Part shown: positions 8,167 through 19,400 of the stretch, in pieces
How positions within the stretch are numbered: the first letter of the stretch is position 1
Layout: every line of letters starts with the position of its first letter
Assembly (NCBI RefSeq): GCF_947495925.1
Contig: NZ_CANMAU010000004.1
Location: 310,001 to 374,000, forward strand
Direction of reading: 5' to 3'
Length of the DNA: 64,000 nt
DNA from: an uncultured Algibacter sp.
Lineage (GTDB): Bacteria; Bacteroidota; Bacteroidia; Flavobacteriales; Flavobacteriaceae
Translations under genes and position numbers: made by a program
The notes under the pieces: generated by a model
Seen by the model: the letters and a program-made list of their open reading frames with translations, nothing else
What the model was told of the DNA's origin: nothing
The model's database searches: none

Positions 8167-9555
8167 TTAAATATGGTCCTCTTCAGCACGTTTTATGATA
8201 GCTTCAGGGAGTGATTTTTTAGCTTTGGCTCCCATTTTTTTAAGTTTCTCAACACTAGTTATAAGGTTGCCTCTTCCTTCAACTAGCTTGTTCATTGCTG
8301 ATGAATAATCGTTTTTTGCAGCATCAATCTTTTTGCCAACTCCTGTTAAATCTGTAACTAAACCTTCAAATTTATCATATAAAGCTCCAGCTTGTCGCGC
8401 AATTTCGACAGCATTACGTTGCTGCTTCTCGTTATTCCACATGCTGTCTATTGTACGTAAAGTAGCAAGAAGTGTTGAAGGTGTAACGATAACAATGTTT
8501 TTCTCAAAAGCTTTGTTGTAAATAGCGTTGTCTTCGTTAACAACTATGGCGAATGCTGGTTCTATGGGTATAAACATGAGTACAAAATCTGGTGATTCTA
8601 TGTCATACAGATCTTGGTAATTTTTTTCTGAAAGTTGATCGACATGCTTTTTTATAGAATTAACATGGGCTTTTAAATATTTGATTTTGTCCTCTTCATC
8701 TGCATTTACCAAGCGCTCATAATCGGTTAAGGAGACTTTACTATCAATAATCATTTTTTTACCATCAGGAAGATGTAGTACAACATCTGGTAAAACTCGT
8801 GAACCATTATCTAAAGTAAAACTTTGTTGTATAAAATACTCTCTATCTTTTTCTAAACCAGATTTTTCAAGAACACGTTCTAGCACTAATTCGCCCCAAT
8901 TCCCTTGCATTTTACTGTCGCCTTTTAGAGCTCTAGTTAGGTTTGTAGCCTCTTTAGTCATTTGTTGATTTAGGTCTTTAAGACCCAATAACTGCTCTTT
9001 TAAAGCAGAATGCATACTGATACTTTCTTTTTGAGAAGCCTCTACTTTTTTCTCAAAACCTTGTATTTTTTCTTGTAACGGACTTAATATATTTTTAATA
9101 TTTTCTTTATTCTGCTCCGTGAATTTATTTGATTTTTCGTCAAGAATTTTGTTTGCCAGATTTTCAAATTCTTTTGTGAATTTTTCCTGAAGTTTTTCAA
9201 CCTCTTCTTTTTGCTCGTTATTTTTTAAGGTCAGGTTTTCGAATTCTGTATTCCTTCTTGTTAGTTCGGCATTAAGAAACTCTTTTTCTCGTCTAATGCT
9301 TTCTCTTTCGTTTTCTAGTTTTGTAATAGTCGATTTGAGCTCTTCAACTTGGTTTTTAAAAACTTCAGTTTGTTTGTTTTTTTCTTCTTCTGCAGACCCC
9401 TTTAAATGATTTAGCTGTTCTTGTAAATTGCTATTGCGTTCTTGTAAGGTGCTTTGCTCACTTTTACTTTTAAGTTTGGTAAAAAGCATACCTAAATAGC
9501 CACCAATCGCAGCAGCAATTAAAATGGATAAGATGAGAATTATATTGTCGTTCAT
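8167..9555 (-). CDS. rmuC: DNA recombination protein RmuC
   Basis: 462 residues: an N-terminal membrane helix (about 5-25), a long coiled coil (about 30-150, many Glu/Lys/Asn heptads), and the nuclease-like RmuC domain from about 190 ('LTRALKGDSKMQGNWGELVL', 'LPDVVLHLPDGKKMIIDSKV', 'FVLMFIPIEPAFAI'). RmuC limits recombination between inverted repeats and has a PD-(D/E)xK-like core (here the D-V and IDSK residues). It is the last ordinary gene before the reverse-transcriptase island. Confidence 0.93.
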   Translation of the reverse strand: MNDNIILILSILIAAAIGGYLGMLFTKLKSKSEQSTLQERNSNLQEQLNHLKGSAEEEKNKQTEVFKNQVEELKSTITKLENERESIRREKEFLNAELTRRNTEFENLTLKNNEQKEEVEKLQEKFTKEFENLANKILDEKSNKFTEQNKENIKNILSPLQEKIQGFEKKVEASQKESISMHSALKEQLLGLKDLNQQMTKEATNLTRALKGDSKMQGNWGELVLERVLEKSGLEKDREYFIQQSFTLDNGSRVLPDVVLHLPDGKKMIIDSKVSLTDYERLVNADEEDKIKYLKAHVNSIKKHVDQLSEKNYQDLYDIESPDFVLMFIPIEPAFAIVVNEDNAIYNKAFEKNIVIVTPSTLLATLRTIDSMWNNEKQQRNAVEIARQAGALYDKFEGLVTDLTGVGKKIDAAKNDYSSAMNKLVEGRGNLITSVEKLKKMGAKAKKSLPEAIIKRAEEDHI

Positions 9556-9612
9556 AATATAAGTATCTAAGATGTAAAAGTAATAAATAAAAAGAGGTGT
9601 CTCGAGAACTCT

Positions 9613-11121
9613 TTAATCTTTCTTAACATTTGAAAAATCATATTTTTTCAAAGTCTTTTGAAGTATTTTCCAATGATTTCGTAACTGTCGTTTTATTTCC
9701 GGAGCTTCCAATTCATCAGAAGCTCTGTATGCATATCTTAAATAATTACCTCTAAATTTTCTTTCAAAATTTTTGGTTCTTGCTTTGCTATTTACAAATT
9801 CCGTTCTTTTAACTGGAAGCATTCTAGACTTCTCTCCTTTAAAACTAAAAAGCCTATATACTTTTCTTTTAAATATAGGAGCTTCATCTAAAAGGTGTTT
9901 TTCTTTAATGGTTTCAACTCTTTTATGTTTTCGTTTTATAGTTTCCTTCATTTCTCTATAAAACTTAGCCAAATTTTTAGACTTTATTAATGTTTGGTAG
10001 CCATAAAACTCAAAACCTAAGTAGTTTAATGGAACGTTTTCTTTTAAATTACCATTGTTCTCAATTTTGAAACTTTGTAAACGGCCACGGTTTATTTTGA
10101 AAAGTGTTTTCTCTGTTTTTTCTAATGAAATAGTTAATTTATTTTTTATCATTTCATTTTTGACAAACTCTTCAATTAGCTTTATTTGATTTTCTTTACT
10201 AATCACGACAATATCATCAGAATATCTTCTGTAGAATACACTGTGCTTTACTGTTAATTCATTTATTACGGATTCATCAAAATCAAGCATATAAATGTTA
10301 GCAAGTAATGCGCTAATGGGTAAACCTTGAGGTATTCCCATTAAGTTTTTATTATCATCTTTTTTTTGATTTTTATGTATGATGATATCTGAATCAATAA
10401 GGTCTTTTATACTTTCAAAAAAGGTGTGTTTACCGTTTTTTCTATGTTTCGATAATCGCTTTTCATCAAAATGGCCGTTTTTGGATTTTAGATCTTTTAG
10501 TTTTACATAAGAAAATTTAGTTGTTGCTTTAAAAATATTAAAATGATCTTTTGGTAACGTTTTGTTGCCTAATATTTTAGCCCAAGCTAATTTTAGTTTT
10601 TTATGATTTAGACTAGGAAAGAAGTTTTCTATATCTAGAACTAAAGCAACACAATTTTTTCTTCGTTTAATTTCATCAAAAACATCCTTCGCAAAATGAA
10701 CATTGTTTTTAAACTTGAGCTTATCATCTGTTTCAATTTGTCTGTATGCAGTTATCGAATTTGAAAGTAATGAGTTATTTTTTAGATAAGTCTCATATTT
10801 TGGGTTAATAATTTGTTGTGTATAATAAGAATATATGTGTGCATCAATATGGGAAGCATAAAGTATTTTTCTGATTTTTGTATTTGAAACTACTTTACCT
10901 TTTTTGACCTTCTTATGAGAATGCCTTTTTACATCATTAAATTTGGCTAATTTATAGCGACGTTGTTTAATTTCTTTAAAAATTAAAGGAGAAAAAGAGT
11001 GATGAGCTACTTTTTTGGAATTCGTAACATAGCGTTCAATATTTTTTCTAATCGACAATGGGGTCTTATTAGTAAAATGTGGATAGCCTCTATCTTTAAA
11101 CCAGTCTTTTTGTGCTTTCAT
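9613..11121 (-). CDS. Reverse transcriptase of the defence-associated (UG/DRT) type, probably DRT2-like
   Basis: 502 residues with all core RT motifs: motif A 'VLDIENFFPSLNH' (Asp 163), motif B 'GIPQGLPISALLANIYM' (PQG at 264-266), motif C 'YRRYSDDIVVIS' (catalytic Asp 302-303), then 'ISLEKTEKTLF' and 'YLGFEFYG'. The N-terminal block 'DWFKDRGYPHF', 'HSFSPLI' and 'YASHIDAHIYSYY' resembles unknown-group RTs used in phage defence. There is no maturase or endonuclease domain as in group II intron RTs, and no fused partner domain. The C-terminal 130 residues are basic and helical. Upstream is a long structured non-coding region, as expected for DRT2-type systems whose RT copies a neighbouring ncRNA. 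RT identity is near certain; the subtype is inference. Confidence 0.9.
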   Translation of the reverse strand: MKAQKDWFKDRGYPHFTNKTPLSIRKNIERYVTNSKKVAHHSFSPLIFKEIKQRRYKLAKFNDVKRHSHKKVKKGKVVSNTKIRKILYASHIDAHIYSYYTQQIINPKYETYLKNNSLLSNSITAYRQIETDDKLKFKNNVHFAKDVFDEIKRRKNCVALVLDIENFFPSLNHKKLKLAWAKILGNKTLPKDHFNIFKATTKFSYVKLKDLKSKNGHFDEKRLSKHRKNGKHTFFESIKDLIDSDIIIHKNQKKDDNKNLMGIPQGLPISALLANIYMLDFDESVINELTVKHSVFYRRYSDDIVVISKENQIKLIEEFVKNEMIKNKLTISLEKTEKTLFKINRGRLQSFKIENNGNLKENVPLNYLGFEFYGYQTLIKSKNLAKFYREMKETIKRKHKRVETIKEKHLLDEAPIFKRKVYRLFSFKGEKSRMLPVKRTEFVNSKARTKNFERKFRGNYLRYAYRASDELEAPEIKRQLRNHWKILQKTLKKYDFSNVKKD

Positions 11122-11139
11122 AATTAAATAAAAGTAAGA

Positions 11140-11555
11140 GAAGTTCTCGCACGTATTTATAACAGAATAAAACTTACACCTTTTAAAAAGGATTGAACCA
11201 TTAGCCGAGTTCTCGACTCACGTTGCATTTTTACGTCTAAATAATAAATACTTATATATGATAGAACTTACCCTAGCAATAATTAACTTAGCTTTAGAAG
11301 CCTTTAATGTATGCCATAGCTTGGTGTATATCAATGTACTAATAAGAATTATTGAGGTAGTAACGTTACTTCCGAAAATAATTTCTTATCTCGGTGTAAC
11401 AAAACTAACAGAATTACATAGTACCTAATCTCCATATTTATTAACCCCTTTTCTATTAAAAAGGTCGGATTAAGTGATTGATTAGAAATCAATACAATAG
11501 TTCAACAAATGTTTTATTCTTTTTAACTAAAGAACTTCCTTACTTTAGTTGTAAA
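11140..11555 (-). ncRNA. Candidate structured ncRNA template of the reverse transcriptase
   Basis: The 440 bp between the RT start codon and the divergent gene is too long for a simple promoter region. On the RT strand it can form several hairpins: arms 11525-11532/11543-11550 (8 bp), 11480-11485/11491-11496 around the ATTGAT/ATCAAT pair, a CCTTTT/AAAAGG stem near 11448-11463, an AAAAGG-type palindrome near 11179-11192, and GAGT/ACTC near 11207-11219. DRT2 systems carry such an ncRNA just upstream of the RT and on its strand. The exact ends cannot be read from sequence, and no covariance evidence is available here. Confidence 0.5.
11258..11428 (+). other. Stop-free frame inside the ncRNA region (Neo-like or small hydrophobic peptide)
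   Basis: An ATG at 11258 opens 56 codons ending at TAA 11426-11428. The same frame is open back to 11171, giving 85 codons without stop in AT-rich DNA. The product 'MIELTLAIINLALEAFNVCH' and onwards is hydrophobic and would form helices. It is antisense to the RT and the candidate ncRNA, hence in the sense of any cDNA copied from that RNA. It may be an ordinary small protein, a concatemer reading frame of the DRT2 kind, or chance. Confidence 0.35.
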
Positions 11556-11598
11556 TATAATATTATTGTTATTTTTATCTAAGAAAAATCAATTAAAC

Positions 11599-12255
11599 AT
11601 GAGCAATTTTATTGTTGGAGATATTGTTACAATTAAATCACATCCTTTATTTAGTAATACACATAAGAAAATAAATGCTTTAACTTCTCTTGTACCTCCT
11701 TTGATGGTTGTCAAAGAAGTTCTTTTCGATAAAGAAGAAAAAAAAATATTATATAGTAATGAAATTAAAAAGGCAAAAATTGCTGACTTGACAAAGTATG
11801 TATGTGTTTATTTTAACGCAAATAAAAGTGAGTTTGTTGAGAAAACCATTTATCATTCTTTAGTAAAAGGCTACTTAGATTTAAAATATTATAGAAAAGA
11901 AGAAAAAAGTAAGTCTTCAAATATTGATTTAGTTTTAGAAGTAGCTAAATATAAACACAATGTTGATTATGAGTTTGGTAAATGCGTTCAGTTTAAAACA
12001 AAAAAATTAGAGCATAGAAAATCTTATGATGCTAATACTGTAGAAAGAATTCCAGGAATTTCTTTTCAAACACCTGATTTTATATTGACAGGAATTAAGA
12101 ATGAAGAGCAGAAAGACTTGTTTTTTAATGATGGTACGCAAAAAAAACAAATGAGTACTCAGTTATTTAAAGTGATGTGGTTTAATCACTATCAACAAAA
12201 GTTTAGTGAAGATTATTTACCTAAAGAGTTTTTTGTTGAAGATTTAGAAATATAA
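11599..12255 (+). CDS. Uncharacterised protein divergent from the reverse transcriptase
   Basis: 218 residues from the ATG at 11599 (an earlier TTG at 11566 adds 11 residues without domain character). It begins 'MSNFIVGDIVTIKSHPLF' and continues 'LVPPLMVVKEVLF'; the 'VGDIV..KSHP' and 'PPLMVV.E' phrases look like a small beta-barrel domain, followed by a Lys-rich alpha/beta part and an acidic tail. No signal peptide, no membrane helix and no catalytic motif that I recognise. It is 3 bp short of the convergent ABC ATPase gene. Its place beside the RT and the high AT content suggest it belongs to the same accessory island, but a functional link is inference. Confidence 0.7.
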   Translation: MSNFIVGDIVTIKSHPLFSNTHKKINALTSLVPPLMVVKEVLFDKEEKKILYSNEIKKAKIADLTKYVCVYFNANKSEFVEKTIYHSLVKGYLDLKYYRKEEKSKSSNIDLVLEVAKYKHNVDYEFGKCVQFKTKKLEHRKSYDANTVERIPGISFQTPDFILTGIKNEEQKDLFFNDGTQKKQMSTQLFKVMWFNHYQQKFSEDYLPKEFFVEDLEI

Positions 12256-12258
12256 TAC

Positions 12259-13056
12259 TTATTTTTTTACCCTAAAACTTCCTGTTTTTTCGTTAAAAGC
12301 AATTAAGTCCTTTGGAAATAAATTTTCAAAAGTACCATTTAAAATGAGGTTGCAGGGTTCGTCTGAAACAACGTTATTTTTGGTCATTACAATCATTTTA
12401 TCACAAAGTTGAATGGCCAAATCTATTTCATGAGATGAAAATAAAATGGTTTTACCTGTTTCTTTTGTTAAGCGCTGAAGGAGTTTTAAAATGTACGCCT
12501 TGTGATACATGTCCAAATGAGTTGTAGGCTCATCAAGGATAATCAAATCTGTGTCTTGGGCGAGGGCTCTGGCAATCATTACTTTTTGAAGTTGCCCATC
12601 ACTAAGCTCAAAACATTTTTTATCCTTTAAGTCCTCAATATTAATTTGAATAAGAGCTTCATTCACTACATCAATATCTTTTTTTGAAAAATTTCCAATC
12701 CAATTGGTATAAGGCTGTCTTCCTAGAGCAACCAATTCTAATACCGTGAGGTTTTTTGAGGATAAAGATTCGGTAAGTACTAGGCTTAATACTTTGGCTA
12801 GTTCTAAATTGGAATATGCGTCAAGAGTTTTGTCATTTAAGAAAATATCACCACTTAACTTCGACTGAACATTTGTTAATGATCGTAATAAGGTAGATTT
12901 TCCAATACCATTGGCACCCACTAAACCAACCAATTCACCTTTATGTAATTCAATATTTATGTTAGAACCTATTGTAGTAGTTTCTTTTTTTGAAGTATAG
13001 CCAATGGAAAGCTTATTGGTTTTAAGAACGATATGTTTATTTAAAGTGCCACTCAT
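12259..13056 (-). CDS. btuD: ABC transporter ATP-binding protein, cobalamin/siderophore type (BtuD/FecE-like)
   Basis: 265 residues with Walker A 'GANGIGKST', Q-loop region, signature 'LSDGQLQKVMIARAL' (Asp where Gly is usual), Walker B 'LIILDEPTTHLD' and the H-switch 'SSHEID'. Energises import through the FecCD-type permease. The ATG overlaps the permease stop by one base, and the order lipoprotein-permease-ATPase continues into cobC, cobS, cobT and cobU, so the likely cargo is cobalamin or cobinamide. It is the last gene of this minus-strand operon. Confidence 0.9.
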   Translation of the reverse strand: MSGTLNKHIVLKTNKLSIGYTSKKETTTIGSNINIELHKGELVGLVGANGIGKSTLLRSLTNVQSKLSGDIFLNDKTLDAYSNLELAKVLSLVLTESLSSKNLTVLELVALGRQPYTNWIGNFSKKDIDVVNEALIQINIEDLKDKKCFELSDGQLQKVMIARALAQDTDLIILDEPTTHLDMYHKAYILKLLQRLTKETGKTILFSSHEIDLAIQLCDKMIVMTKNNVVSDEPCNLILNGTFENLFPKDLIAFNEKTGSFRVKK

Positions 13057-14084
13057 TAAAACATCATTTTACGTTTACGGACCAACAACCAAATAACCAC
13101 GGGAGCACCTATTAATGAGGTGATGGCATTTATTGGTAGCGTATATTCACTGGATGGTAATTGAGCAATACTATCGCAAATTAGCATGACGATAGACCCA
13201 AATAAAAATACAGCTGGTAATAATATTTTATGGTTTGAGGTATTAAATACTTGTCGAGTTATATGAGGAATGGCAAGACCAATAAATGCAATAGGGCCAG
13301 CAAAAGCCGTAATGGTTCCGGCTAGTAAGCTTGTAGATATAATAATGATTAGCCTGCTACGCTTTATATTAAGCCCTAAGCTTTTGGCATAATTTTCACC
13401 CAATAATAAAGAGTTTAACCCTTTTATTGTCCCTAAGCTTAACAGAATACCAAGTAAATAAATGACAAATAAAATAAGCAACTCATTCCAAGATAAATTA
13501 CCTAAACTGCCAAAGCCCCAAAAGAAATATTGCTGTAATTCTTCTGCTGAACTGAAATAGGACAGCACATTTACTATGGCTGCCGATACACTTCCAAACA
13601 TCAAACCAATAATTAATATAGCCATGGCATCGCGAACCTTAGAAGACACAATTAAAACAAGCAGCAGCACTAGAAAACTTCCCAGTGTAGCAGCAATTAC
13701 AATAGTCCATTTAGAAGCCAACATGCCAAGTAAAATACCACCGAAAATTGAAGAGCCCATAGTTACTATAGCTACACCCAAACTAGCGCCAGAGGTAATC
13801 CCTAGAACAAATGGGCCGGCAAGCGGGTTCCTAAACAAGGTTTGCATCATTAACCCCGAAATACCTAGACCAGAACCCACAATAATGGCAGTGAATGCTT
13901 TTGGTAACCTATAATCCATTATAATATAATGCCATGAGGGATTTTGATCTATCCCAAATAGTATATTGATGATGTCTTTATTTGGAATGGAAACTGACCC
14001 CAGACTTACATTCAAAAAAAAGACTAGAATCAATAGAAAAACTAGAGTAATAAATGAAATGGTATATCGATGAGTGTGCTGCAA
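13056..14084 (-). CDS. btuC: FecCD/BtuC-family ABC transporter permease
   Basis: 342 residues, strongly hydrophobic with about 9-10 membrane helices. Family motifs: 'YRLPKAFTAIIVGSGLGISG', 'NPLAGPFVLGITSGA' and 'AFAGPIAFIGLAIPHITR', the last contacting the ATPase. The frame starts with TTG directly after the stop of the preceding gene; the first in-frame ATG would remove the first membrane helix, so TTG is preferred. It forms the inner-membrane channel of the importer encoded by its neighbours. Confidence 0.9.
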   Translation of the reverse strand: MQHTHRYTISFITLVFLLILVFFLNVSLGSVSIPNKDIINILFGIDQNPSWHYIIMDYRLPKAFTAIIVGSGLGISGLMMQTLFRNPLAGPFVLGITSGASLGVAIVTMGSSIFGGILLGMLASKWTIVIAATLGSFLVLLLVLIVSSKVRDAMAILIIGLMFGSVSAAIVNVLSYFSSAEELQQYFFWGFGSLGNLSWNELLILFVIYLLGILLSLGTIKGLNSLLLGENYAKSLGLNIKRSRLIIIISTSLLAGTITAFAGPIAFIGLAIPHITRQVFNTSNHKILLPAVFLFGSIVMLICDSIAQLPSSEYTLPINAITSLIGAPVVIWLLVRKRKMMF

Positions 14085-15221
14085 TTAATCTAAACGTTTA
14101 AAAAAGAAATTTTCGTAATCACTTAATAGATTTGGATGAGAAATATTAATGATGTCTTTTAATATAATATCGGGCCTTAGAGGGCCTAATTCATAGTATA
14201 ACAAACCACCCTCAGGACCAATTTTATTAGTGTAAGAGTAAATGTTATTATTTTTAAAAGCGTCAAAGTAGGTGTAGCCTTTATGCTGATCTTGCATTTG
14301 TTTTTTATTTTCAAATAATCCAACACCTAGCCATAATTCTGCCTTATTAGCTTTTTCTAAAACATTCTCGAAATTCAATTGAAGACTTCCGTTAGAGTTG
14401 TTTTCTTTCCACAGATAATTTGTATTAGCATCCTCTAAAAATTTTGCTACAAAGCTTTTTCCTCCAGGAACATACCAAACATCTTTTATCATTGACCCGG
14501 AGAAAACAGTAGGTTTTTTATTAACTTTTAAAGCTATTTGTGCTGCTTTCAGGTAATTAGACTCTATATCGTTAAAAATGCGGTTAGCTTCTTCTTTTTT
14601 GTTGAAAAAAGCCCCTACGAATTTTATCCATTCGGCCCTACCAAGCGGATGTGCTTCTGTCCAGGCACCATCTAAAACTACTGGGATTCCAAACGTTTCT
14701 ATCTGATCTAGTTTTTTGTCATTTCCATTAACTGAAAACCCTATAACAAGTTCTGGTTGCAACTCAAGAAGCAATTCTATATTTATTTTTAAATCATTAT
14801 TTAAATCTTTGATTTCACCATTATCAATTCGCGCTCTTGTTTTTTCAGAAGAAATAAATCTGGTATTAGGAAAACCTACTAGTTTGTCATCAATATCTAG
14901 ATATTCCAAAGTAGGAATATTAGTTGTAGACATGACTACTATTTTATTAATTGGTAGTTGAATAATAATATCAGTTTCGTTATGTTTAGGAATGGTTTGT
15001 CCTTTTTCTACTAAAAGATAACGGTAGGTGTCTTCACTCTTGGGCCAGGGAGAGGTAACAATTATTTCTGTATGAGTTTTGTAATAGTTTATAGCAAAAC
15101 CTGTCGCATATTTTAAAACTTCTTTTTTTACATTAGCCTCTGTTTGTTTTGGTTTGCTCTTGTCCTGTTTGCAAGATGTGAGAGCTAGAAAACATATGAA
15201 AAATAGAACGGTTGAACGCAT
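14085..15221 (-). CDS. Periplasmic substrate-binding lipoprotein of the importer (BtuF-like)
   Basis: About 378 residues from the ATG at 15221, chosen because it places the lipobox 'CFLALTSC' correctly (an ATG at 15248 adds nine residues ahead of the signal peptide). Two-lobed class III binding-protein features: 'INKIVVMSTTNIPTLEYLDI', 'LLLELQPELVIGFSVNG', a long linker helix, and 'LRPDIILKDIINISHP' at the end. It captures the corrinoid (or chelate) and delivers it to the permease; the gene order and cobalamin neighbours favour a corrinoid. A second, signal-less binding protein is encoded at 18226. Confidence 0.87.
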   Translation of the reverse strand: MRSTVLFFICFLALTSCKQDKSKPKQTEANVKKEVLKYATGFAINYYKTHTEIIVTSPWPKSEDTYRYLLVEKGQTIPKHNETDIIIQLPINKIVVMSTTNIPTLEYLDIDDKLVGFPNTRFISSEKTRARIDNGEIKDLNNDLKINIELLLELQPELVIGFSVNGNDKKLDQIETFGIPVVLDGAWTEAHPLGRAEWIKFVGAFFNKKEEANRIFNDIESNYLKAAQIALKVNKKPTVFSGSMIKDVWYVPGGKSFVAKFLEDANTNYLWKENNSNGSLQLNFENVLEKANKAELWLGVGLFENKKQMQDQHKGYTYFDAFKNNNIYSYTNKIGPEGGLLYYELGPLRPDIILKDIINISHPNLLSDYENFFFKRLD

Positions 15222-15282
15222 AAGATAAAATTGTGGTCTAAAGGTCATTATTTTTTTTTAATATTTGATCTGAAACGCATTT

Positions 15283-15849
15283 TTAAATATTGATAGCCGT
15301 GATAAGATTAAAAGTGTCGACTTCTTTTTTTATATGGAAAACGTCTCCGTAATTTATTTTTATATTGAATGAATCTTTTAAATCTATTTTTAAAAGAGTG
15401 GATAAAAAAGCTCGAATAGGTCCAGCGTGCGAAATAATAATTAGATTTTCTGCAGTTTCCGAAAACAAAATTTCTTCAAATAAAGCAGTTACTCTTGATG
15501 CTAATTGGGTGTAAGACTCCCCTTTAGGGACAGATACAGTTACAAAGTCAGACATCCAAGGTGTTAGGTCTTTTTCTGGAATATCATTCCAAGGTTTCAT
15601 TTCCCAATCTCCAAAATGCAGCTCTTTTAAACGACTATCAAAAACAACATCGTTACTAAACTGTTTTGCCAATAGTGCACAACGTTTTAATGGGCTTGAA
15701 ATGATTTTGAAAGATTCTAAAGTCGGAATTTTTGATTTAACCACCTTAAATTCTTCATCATGGTTATCATCTAATTCTAAGTCACTATGGCCATAGCAAA
15801 TGCCTTTTTTAATTTTTGGAGTTGTATGTCTTACTAGATAAATTTCCAT
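15283..15849 (-). CDS. cobC: Alpha-ribazole phosphatase, histidine phosphatase family (CobC)
   Basis: 188 residues from the ATG at 15849 ('MEIYLVRHTTPKIKKG'); longer versions of the frame only add sequence antisense to nothing meaningful inside cobS. Catalytic motif 'RHTTP', second 'SSPLKRC' and 'ISHAGPIRA' with the second active-site histidine. It removes phosphate from alpha-ribazole-5'-phosphate (or adenosylcobalamin-5'-phosphate) in nucleotide-loop assembly. It overlaps the end of cobS by 16 bp, indicating one mRNA. Confidence 0.88.
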   Translation of the reverse strand: MEIYLVRHTTPKIKKGICYGHSDLELDDNHDEEFKVVKSKIPTLESFKIISSPLKRCALLAKQFSNDVVFDSRLKELHFGDWEMKPWNDIPEKDLTPWMSDFVTVSVPKGESYTQLASRVTALFEEILFSETAENLIIISHAGPIRAFLSTLLKIDLKDSFNIKINYGDVFHIKKEVDTFNLITAINI

Positions 15850-16595
15850 AATACTAGCACGCTTAAATAAAATACCACTTCGCATAGTTGTTGCACAGCA
15901 CCTGCACAGTCTCCAGTTTGACCACCTAACCATTTTTTAAATTTTCGTCCTAAGTATACCTTAGACAAGTAGGTAGGTAGTATAGTTAAGAATATTAAAG
16001 GCGTATTGAAAAAGAATAATGGCAGAAGCCCAAAAAAACCACTAAGGATTAGCATACCAAAGGAAATACTTTTGGCTGCAGGTTTTGCTTTACTATCGTC
16101 TGTATCTCTTACATATGGGTGCGTATAAATTAAAGTGGTGGCAATAAATCTGCTCAAACTATGTCCTGATACTATAACTAGAGGAATAAAATATGGGTTA
16201 ATTTCTCTTAAAGCAGAAAATTTTATAGCTAGTATTAAAACTAATCCTGCAGCTCCATAAGTTCCCAAGCGTGAGTCTTTCATAATGATGAGGATTTTTT
16301 CTTTAGTCCATCCGCCACCTAGGCCATCACAAACATCGGCAAATCCATCTTCATGGAAAGCTCCTGTAACATAAATAGTTGAAACCATACTTAAGAGAAT
16401 CGAAATTTCCGTCGAAAAAATAAATGAAGCACTGTAAAAAATAAATGCTCCAATGCCACCAACAATAATTCCCACTAAAGAAAAATATTTAGCGCTTTTC
16501 TTTAAATACTCGGGATCATGATCGACCCATTTAGGGCAGGGGATTCTCGTGAAAAACATGATAGCCATAAGAAATATTTGGACTTCTTTTTTCAT
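15834..16595 (-). CDS. cobS: Adenosylcobinamide-GDP ribazoletransferase (CobS)
   Basis: 253 residues from the ATG at 16595 ('MKKEVQIFLMAIMFFTRIPC'), the conserved family N-terminus. Family motif 'HEDGFADVCDGLGGG' binds metal and substrate; 5-6 membrane helices follow; 'GGQTGDCAGAVQQLCEV' is the conserved C-terminal motif. It joins alpha-ribazole to adenosylcobinamide-GDP, the last step of cobalamin assembly, at the inner membrane. The start lies 1 bp after the cobT stop. Confidence 0.93.
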   Translation of the reverse strand: MKKEVQIFLMAIMFFTRIPCPKWVDHDPEYLKKSAKYFSLVGIIVGGIGAFIFYSASFIFSTEISILLSMVSTIYVTGAFHEDGFADVCDGLGGGWTKEKILIIMKDSRLGTYGAAGLVLILAIKFSALREINPYFIPLVIVSGHSLSRFIATTLIYTHPYVRDTDDSKAKPAAKSISFGMLILSGFFGLLPLFFFNTPLIFLTILPTYLSKVYLGRKFKKWLGGQTGDCAGAVQQLCEVVFYLSVLVLWKFI

Positions 16596-16596
16596 T

Positions 16597-17622
16597 TTAT
16601 TTACTTTCAGATTCGTTGCTAACACCTGCACTGTCGAAGCTTGCCATGTTGTTTAAAAAATTTACTGCTGCTCTCAATAAAGGCATGGCTAAGGCAGCAC
16701 CAGTGCCTTCTCCTAACCGTAAACCTAATGATAGTAATGGTTTAGCATTTAAAAACTCCAACATATTTTGATGTCCCTGTTCGTTTGAGTTATGGGCAAA
16801 TACACAATATTCTAAAACCTTTGGGTGAATAGCATGTGCAGCTAGAAGTGCCGCTGTAACTATAAAACCATCAATTACCACAATCATTTTTAATTCGGCA
16901 GCTTTTAATATCGCACCGCAGAGCATGGCTATTTCAAAACCCCCAAAAGTGGCTAAAGCTTCATGAGCCGTTTTTGGACTGTATTTATTGTAAACATTTG
17001 ATAGTAGTTGTGTTTTTTTATTAATGCCTTCTTCTTTTAACCCAGTGCCAGCACCCACACAGTTTTCAATTGGAATAGCCGTAAAATAAGCCATTAAAAG
17101 TGCGGCCGATGAGGTATTGCTAATACCCATTTCTCCAAAACCAATAGTGTTGCATCCTTTGTCGTTAATTTTAGAAATAATATCACTCGCTTTTTGAATG
17201 GCTTCCTGATATTCTTTTGAAGACATGGCAGGCTCATCTTGATAATTATGAGTGCCAAGTGCAATTTTCGCATCAATAATGTTTAAATCATTTTTAAAAA
17301 CATGATTAACTCCTGCATCAACCACCTTTAAATCTATATCGTTTGTTTTGCTAAATATGTTAATAGCAGCGCCTTTATTTACAAAATTATATACCATTTG
17401 AGCAGTTACTTCTTGAGGAAATGGGTTAACCACGCCTTTTTTAGCAATGCCATGATCACCAGCAAAAACAATGATAGCTGGTTTGGATATTTTAGGTGTT
17501 TCAGTCTCTTGTATACACCCTATTTGCAATGCTAAACCTTCTAGCTCGCCTAACGCACCAAGAGGTTTAGTTTTTGAATCAATTTTATGTTGAAGCGCTT
17601 TTTTTAAATCGGATTTAGTCAT
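16597..17622 (-). CDS. cobT: Nicotinate-nucleotide-dimethylbenzimidazole phosphoribosyltransferase (CobT)
   Basis: 341 residues, full family length. 'KTKPLGALGELEGLALQIG' at the start, 'FAGDHGIAKKGVVNPFPQEV', 'GFGEMGISNTSSAALLMA' and 'LRLGEGTGAALAMPLLRAA' containing the catalytic Glu. It activates the lower ligand base to alpha-ribazole phosphate in the cytoplasm. It sits between cobU (4 bp gap) and cobS (1 bp gap). With CobU, CobS and CobC but no corrin-ring genes in the window, the set suits salvage of imported cobinamide. Confidence 0.95.
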   Translation of the reverse strand: MTKSDLKKALQHKIDSKTKPLGALGELEGLALQIGCIQETETPKISKPAIIVFAGDHGIAKKGVVNPFPQEVTAQMVYNFVNKGAAINIFSKTNDIDLKVVDAGVNHVFKNDLNIIDAKIALGTHNYQDEPAMSSKEYQEAIQKASDIISKINDKGCNTIGFGEMGISNTSSAALLMAYFTAIPIENCVGAGTGLKEEGINKKTQLLSNVYNKYSPKTAHEALATFGGFEIAMLCGAILKAAELKMIVVIDGFIVTAALLAAHAIHPKVLEYCVFAHNSNEQGHQNMLEFLNAKPLLSLGLRLGEGTGAALAMPLLRAAVNFLNNMASFDSAGVSNESESK

Positions 17623-19164: not shown

Positions 19165-19181
19165 AAAATACTATACATTTG
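19153..19181 (+). promoter_or_regulatory. Promoter of the riboswitch-btuB transcript
   Basis: TTTG at 19153-19156 and TACATTTG at 19174-19181 are separated by 17 bp, matching the Bacteroidota -33/-7 pattern. The -33 box overlaps the end of the preceding coding region. Transcription would start near 19187, right at the expected 5' end of the riboswitch. Confidence 0.65.
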
Positions 19182-19186
19182 CAACG

Positions 19187-19358
19187 AATTTTGGTTCCAT
19201 TCAATGTTACCTGTTTGGATTAAAAGGGAATCTGGTGAAACTCCAGAACTGTTCCCGCAACTGTAAGCTATAAAGCTTCGTGTTCAACTTCAAGTCACTG
19301 AAGACTCATCTTTGGGAAGACCAACATGAAGACGCAAGTCAGGAGACCTGCCTTATTC
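19187..19358 (+). ncRNA. Cobalamin riboswitch
   Basis: The leader carries the hallmarks of the AdoCbl/B12 class: 'GGGAATCTGGTGAAACTCC' and 'CCCGCAACTGTAAGC' in the first half, a GTCACTGAAG segment near 19294, and the B12 box 'AAGTCAGGAGACCTGCC' at 19336-19352. It ends about 45 bp before the btuB-like start. It is expected to shut off the receptor and BtuG-like genes when cobalamin is plentiful, probably by masking the ribosome-binding region, as no terminator follows. Confidence 0.95.
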
Positions 19359-19400
19359 AAAACCAAATAATAAAACTTTCGGGATAAAAGTTTAGAATTT

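Follow-up and report, generated by a model that had tools for sequence, protein, structure and literature searches.

Organization of the Locus and the Reverse Transcriptase

The window analyzed here is a 64,000-nt stretch of the genome of an uncultured Algibacter sp. (Flavobacteriaceae; contig NZ_CANMAU010000004.1, positions 310,001–374,000). Between the rmuC gene and an ABC ATPase gene it carries a reverse transcriptase (RT) gene assigned by profile to the DRT2 (UG2) family, a predicted non-coding RNA (ncRNA) encoded just upstream of the RT, and a divergent YodC-like gene. It is very probable that this locus is a Bacteroidota DRT2 anti-phage system that makes the protein Neo from ncRNA-templated repeats. 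The comparison covered a near set of 49 homologues (L037–L085, ~45–87% identity), collected by genome searches and one contig scan from Winogradskyella, Algibacter, Mariniflexile, Formosa, Flavobacterium, Tenacibaculum, Aquimarina, Maribacter, and other genera, and a distant set of 31 Bacteroidota homologues (L086–L116). Near relatives were absent from two viral-contig scans.

The open reading frame (ORF) of the RT occupied exactly positions 9613–11121 on the reverse strand, started with ATG and encoded 502 aa. Its YSDD motif (residues 300–303) was invariant across 11 aligned homologues. Among the unknown group (UG) and DRT profiles, the PADLOC Drt2 profile ranked first by a wide margin (459 bits, E 7e-138), and the next family reached 81 bits (E 2e-23), the score that the RT_UG17 profile obtained. 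The closest solved structures by sequence were DRT2 chains from the PDB, such as 9c0i, and the alignment to these chains spanned residues 6–430 plus a C-terminal piece. The Pfam scan of the RT found only RVT_1, with no maturase domain, and the Rfam scan found no intron RNA. A retron RT was rejected (retron_St85, 51.8 vs. a cut-off of 235), as was a group II intron RT (group_II_RT_mat, 55.4 vs. a cut-off of 300). By these profile and structure searches, the RT belongs to the DRT2/UG2 family and is neither a retron RT nor a maturase. An initial annotation of this DNA had described a 502-residue RT with an intact YSDD and without maturase or intron parts, and had proposed a DRT2-like system; the description was borne out, the family was supported, and the RT was not placed in a retron or group II intron clade. 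One related RT gene (L017) contained a single in-frame TAG stop.

Structure of the Predicted ncRNA

The ncRNA was placed by conservation and covariation at 11136–11546 on the reverse strand, the strand of all RNA elements given below. Its ends are approximate: a terminal helix served to set the 3′ end, and the 5′ end was set by a promoter-like box, TATATTTA (11552–11559), which resembles the −7 box of a sigma-A promoter, may belong to the promoter of the ncRNA, and kept its position in most homologues. In the near set, the ncRNA comprised a constant 5′ part (GGAAGTTCTTTAGTTA...ACATTTGTTGAACTA...), a type-specific middle and a constant 3′ part (GCAACGTGAGTCGAGAACTCGGCTAATGGTTCAATC...GAGAACTTC).

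Covariation was computed on 44 distinct homologue rows, and 92–99% of the cells were paired in the terminal helix, a pseudoknot between the 5′ and 3′ parts, and helices H2, H3, H5, and H6. The terminal helix joined GAAGTTCT (11531–11538) to AGAACTTC (11140–11147), with 95% of cells paired, and the long-range pseudoknot joined TTGAACTA (11498–11505) to TGGTTCAA (11193–11200), with 94%. The strongest covariation was observed in hairpin H2 (ATTGA/TCAAT; 11477–11493), which was paired in 94% of cells vs. 53% after shuffling and displayed compensatory changes at all five pairs. Helix H5 (ACGT/ACGT), which closes the 3′ domain (11151–11223), was paired in 92% vs. 67%. The other helices, among them H3 (CTTAATC/GATTAGG; 11424–11474), immediately 5′ of the template, and H6 (GTCGA/TCGGC; 11204–11217), were more conserved than H2 and H5, and their margin over the shuffles was smaller. 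Most helix pairs contained compensatory changes, and shifting the 3′ strand abolished the pairing. Two further helices, H4 and H7, were dropped as out of register in the alignment. To judge from this covariation, the upstream region is a pseudoknotted ncRNA built around a variable template.

The hairpin-rich region of about 440 bp noticed in the initial annotation had strongly conserved flanks, a variable middle and pairing above chance, and its structure was conserved across the 44 rows. The ncRNA was correctly located upstream of the RT, but it reaches further than had been supposed, to about 11136 near the RT start, where its 3′ strand pairs with its own 5′ end. The coordinates given there took in the RT and the upstream region but not the divergent gene of the system (11599–12255, forward strand). 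The statement that the ncRNA had not been described held for Rfam, which at permissive thresholds gave only chance matches in the region upstream of the RT. However, Tang et al. (2024; PMC11100668) mention ncRNAs predicted by covariance models in divergent DRT2 clades, and the present ncRNA may in itself have been seen before. A readable template with a Neo frame, a reconstituted promoter and a YodC-like partner gene go beyond that annotation.

Predicted Template Unit and Neo Frame

In the model developed for DRT2 (UG2) of Klebsiella pneumoniae, identical short motifs bracket the template, the unit is divisible by three, and the complementary DNA (cDNA) strand carries an endless frame (Wilkinson et al., 2024, PMC12039810; Tang et al., 2024, PMC11100668). 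In the window, the predicted template unit was 183 nt long (11235–11417, reverse strand), from GTA-1 (11417–11415) to just before GTA-2 (11234–11232). Template boundaries were taken from a glocal alignment and from listed boundaries. The bracketing motif, ACA in Klebsiella, was GTA at the donor in 34/43 sequences and at the acceptor in 40/43, and donor and acceptor were exactly the same in 34/43. On the cDNA strand (forward), the predicted Neo repeat was the single open frame across the unit, 61 codons that become endless on concatenation, with a conserved ATG at 11258–11260: LNNKYLYMIELTLAIINLALEAFNVCHSLVYINVLIRIIEVVTLLPKIISYLGVTKLTELR.

In 40 of 46 sequences, the window included, the unit was a multiple of three and the cDNA-strand frame was open around the junction (36 at once, and four more after a 1-nt donor shift, GTA having become GAA); because the rows are related, the counts lack independence, although many dissimilar types of template were represented. 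The unit lengths were 105, 171, 174, 183, 186, 189, 192, and 207 nt. Only four or six units stayed in phase at out-of-phase offsets, the RNA strand had an open frame in 3/36 units, and mononucleotide shuffles of single units were open in 1–5%. From the junction to the first in-frame ATG, the neo frame contained no stops in 512 codons vs. 93/480 and 36/493 in the other frames. Because this region would be untranslated in an ordinary ORF, this is the sharpest test against an ordinary antisense ORF.

The Neo units had a grand average of hydropathicity of 0.74 (0.12 when shuffled) and were hydrophobic in 40/40 cases. T occupied codon position 2 in 46% of codons of the neo frame compared with 26 and 30% in the others. 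AlphaFold2, run on the alignment of the units, predicted two helices (predicted local distance difference test, pLDDT, 71). No Pfam family was matched above its cut-off, and residue conservation was low. Since 40/46 units combined a length divisible by three with an open frame and no stop occurred in 512 codons, a hydrophobic, apparently helical Neo repeat is conserved in Bacteroidota.

The loci L061 and L081 fell outside the in-phase set. The drt2 of a Psychrobacter plasmid (L168), a weak control because its bracketing motif was picked from a list, had an endless unit of 138 nt with TTGACA-N17-TATGCT across the junction. In the distant set, the ncRNA layout was similar and the YodC gene was larger; the best column pair for the template ends gave an open frame in 9/25, and an anchored test on the same clade did not fix the boundaries. 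Several near loci, such as L037, L039, and L041, had RTs 84–87% identical to that of the window and templates of quite different sequence. This indicated exchange or rapid divergence of the template and Neo types against a constant scaffold and RT.

Predicted Promoter Across the Repeat Junction

In L044, L050, L054, L064, L065, and other homologues, a Bacteroidota sigma-A promoter sequence (TTTG-N19..22-TAnnTTTG; −7 consensus, PMC9723704) spanned the junction, with the −7 box starting 1–2 nt past it. The junction of the window contained no sigma-A match better than shuffles. It joined TGTAACA-N15-CGTCTAA, 18 nt before the Neo ATG: the predicted −35 half TGTAACA lies at 11395–11401 and the −10 half GTCTAA at 11235–11240 (both forward strand), the latter gaining its initial C (CGTCTAA) from base 11417 of the repeat before it. 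The sequence TGTAAC-N16-CGTCTA was found across the junction at one fixed position in eight sequences (window, L037, L038, L040, L042, L048, L056, and L080), which differ in unit length and carry it 15–23 nt before the Neo ATG. It lay inside the template in seven other units, and it did not occur in about 9200 shuffled units.

Among 100 Flavobacteriaceae genomes, TGTAACA-N15-CGTCTA was found at 112 sites in 68 genomes vs. eight for the reversed control. One of the 112 was a DRT2 template itself, and at many sites an ORF began 16–60 nt downstream; among the products of these ORFs were secreted proteins and a rhodanese-like protein. Only exact matches were used, because one mismatch brought the motif to background (18 vs. 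18). A CGT −10 box marks extracytoplasmic function (ECF) sigma factor promoters in Flavobacterium psychrophilum, and this motif, SM6, was all that the literature offered on a sigma factor for TGTAAC-N16-CGTCTA. Since the motif is fixed across the junction, enriched 112 to 8 and contains the CGT box of F. psychrophilum, we infer that the promoter of the window is of the ECF type and would exist only after concatenation.

It is also conceivable, if unlikely, that the DRT2 mechanism holds while the neo of the window is driven by a sigma-A promoter that went unnoticed, the ECF-like motif being incidental. Sigma-A junction promoters do occur in many homologues, and no sigma factor was found for the motif, but such a promoter would have to hide in a junction where no match rose above shuffles, and neither the exact spacing and position of the motif in eight sequences with different unit lengths nor its enrichment across genomes would be expected of an incidental sequence. 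The ECF-type junction promoter is preferred here.

In the own genome of the window, the ECF-like motif also preceded three tandem near-identical 28-codon ORFs (MRTLNNNQLSNTLKGTKTNQWNTKRRYR; L122:1501–1960, G000:C5:125922 onward). The remaining two exact sites of this genome (L121:1794–2135 and L123:1560–1910) lay before two similar small secreted proteins, which are probably paralogues. In the template region of L045 (L167), an unbroken copy of the motif ran antisense to the ncRNA gene. The YodC start followed 269 nt downstream, and the motif could serve as a chromosomal promoter for YodC.

YodC-Like Partner Gene and the Inserted Cassette

The YodC-like gene (11599–12255, forward strand; ATG at 11599) encoded 218 aa. 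It adjoined the ncRNA in 48/49 near loci, in a divergent or co-directional orientation, and in 24/31 distant loci, where several of the proteins had a WYL domain. The gene matched two PADLOC models, RT-associated YodC and WYL-YodC (PDLC03806 and PDLC03787; 249 and 97 bits), so the neighborhood has already been catalogued. These models record association only; here the association is near universal, holds for both gene orientations and is part of a cassette that was inserted as a discrete unit. The confident AlphaFold2 model (pLDDT 89) was read as two tandem beta-barrel repeats, and fold searches with it gave nothing significant, only SH3/Tudor-like and ribosomal barrels. The protein is most probably a dedicated partner of the system that binds nucleic acid and serves as its regulator or sensor, a role without precedent.

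In the congeneric genome G017, rmuC and the ABC ATPase gene were direct neighbors, about 100 nt apart. This empty site indicated that the RT, the ncRNA, and the YodC-like gene form one inserted cassette (9556–12258). RmuC was rejected as a component, since rmuC flanks the empty site. The cassette lay directly before rmuC (8167–9555, reverse strand, in the window) in the window and in 26 related loci from many genera, which suggests either that the insertion is old or that the site is a favored one.

Proposed Mechanism and Alternative Explanations

The RT family, the ncRNA structure, the template periodicity, the open frame, the spacing of the promoter halves, the partner linkage, and the discrete insertion were read from the sequence. 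By analogy with the studied DRT2, the RT would bind the ncRNA encoded just upstream and, on a phage trigger, copy the 183-nt template between the two GTA motifs. The cDNA, ending in TAC, would jump back by re-annealing at the second GTA, and the next round would be copied, giving tandem repeats with the predicted joint ...GAATTAC|GTCTAAATAAT.... After second-strand synthesis, each junction would join TGTAACA to CGTCTAA at exactly N15, and the resulting ECF-sigma-like promoter would lie 18 nt before the conserved ATG. Its transcription would yield an endless chain of the hydrophobic, helical 61-aa Neo repeat, presumably toxic, and growth would stop, as in abortive infection. The dependence on an ECF factor and the part given to the YodC-like protein would both be without precedent. 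A fuller version is proposed tentatively, in which the ECF (stress) sigma promoter exists only at the junctions, so that toxin output depends both on synthesis of the cDNA and on activity of the ECF factor; the YodC-like protein, which some distant relatives carry joined to a WYL sensor, is an obligatory third component, and some relatives make a finite Neo.

Several points weigh against this reading. The template ends were picked by inspection. The NCBIfam Drt2 model ranked first for the RT but scored 363.9, below its cut-off of 390. A few donors were GAA, GTT, GTG, GTC, or GCA, and donor and acceptor co-varied weakly at the junction. The ratio of nonsynonymous to synonymous substitution rates of Neo was weakly below 1, and substitution counts by codon position gave weak selection. 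The ECF assignment was drawn from the motif, with no sigma factor matched to it; in the own genome, no sigma gene stood behind an exact motif. The units of L038, L040, L042, and L056, which share the template type of the window, were 182, 181, 181, and 185 nt, and by hand reading the frame of all four starts at the conserved ATG, runs through the junction and ends in TAA a few codons on (..N-T-SN(N)K). The pattern suggests a finite Neo more than a decaying one; alternatively, the junction could be placed differently.

A repetitive cDNA might also act as DNA, with the open frame left untranslated, as in DRT9 (UG28) and DRT10 (UG17). These and the window have class 2 UG RTs and ncRNA-templated repetitive cDNA (predicted here), and the low conservation of Neo residues would suit non-coding repeats. 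However, the products of the other class 2 systems are homopolymers or short tandem repeats (PMC12483538; PMC12632851), whereas the repeat of the window is long and apparently coding. An untranslated product is very improbable: it leaves unexplained the circular open frame, the multiple-of-three units, the bias of a single frame toward hydrophobic residues, visible in its T content at codon position 2, and the junction promoters followed by an ATG. Least probable of all is a type I toxin–antitoxin pair, in which the ncRNA would be the antisense antitoxin of a small hydrophobic plus-strand ORF and the RT would act otherwise: a 56-codon hydrophobic ORF does run from ATG 11258 in the chromosome, and some homologues have the promoter motif inside the template on the plus strand, but the stop-free frame upstream of the ATG through the junction and the unit lengths kept at multiples of three oppose it, and in the window and seven homologues the chromosomal order of the promoter halves is wrong, and only a junction brings them together.

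Comparison with Klebsiella DRT2

A DRT2 system that makes Neo thus remains the preferred reading, and the window has much in common with Klebsiella DRT2: the RT family and, by profile, its overall fold, an ncRNA directly upstream of the RT, a pseudoknotted scaffold with a variable template and a repeated bracketing trinucleotide, a unit divisible by three whose cDNA strand carries an endless frame for a hydrophobic, helical product, and a promoter arising across the junction (here by sequence). The modeled Neo resembles the helical Klebsiella Neo. In contrast to Klebsiella, the RT is 502 aa with insertions (vs. 425 aa), the ncRNA about 410 nt (vs. 280 nt), and the unit 183 nt with GTA (vs. 120 nt with ACA). 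The junction promoter is of the Bacteroidota sigma-A or ECF-like type instead of sigma-70, no Shine–Dalgarno sequence is expected, and a conserved YodC-like gene is present. What would differ from the studied DRT2 is the jump motif, the type of junction promoter and the conserved extra gene.

If the reading is correct, RNA-templated gene synthesis extends from the studied branch to Bacteroidota. The annotation of Neo in divergent DRT2 clades was reported to be challenging (PMC11100668), and a rule for reading such hidden genes can be offered: from GTA to GTA, a multiple of three, with a promoter at the junction. Some DRT2 systems were predicted to rebuild promoters other than the housekeeping one (Wilkinson et al., PMC12039810), for which the window is a candidate. 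With the YodC-like protein, a partner is also named whose removal could probe the control of the system.

Neighboring Genes

Beyond the cassette, the genes at about 12259–16631 appeared to be involved in cobalamin uptake and synthesis. A cobalamin riboswitch (RF00174, 107 bits) was found at 19175–19369 on the forward strand.
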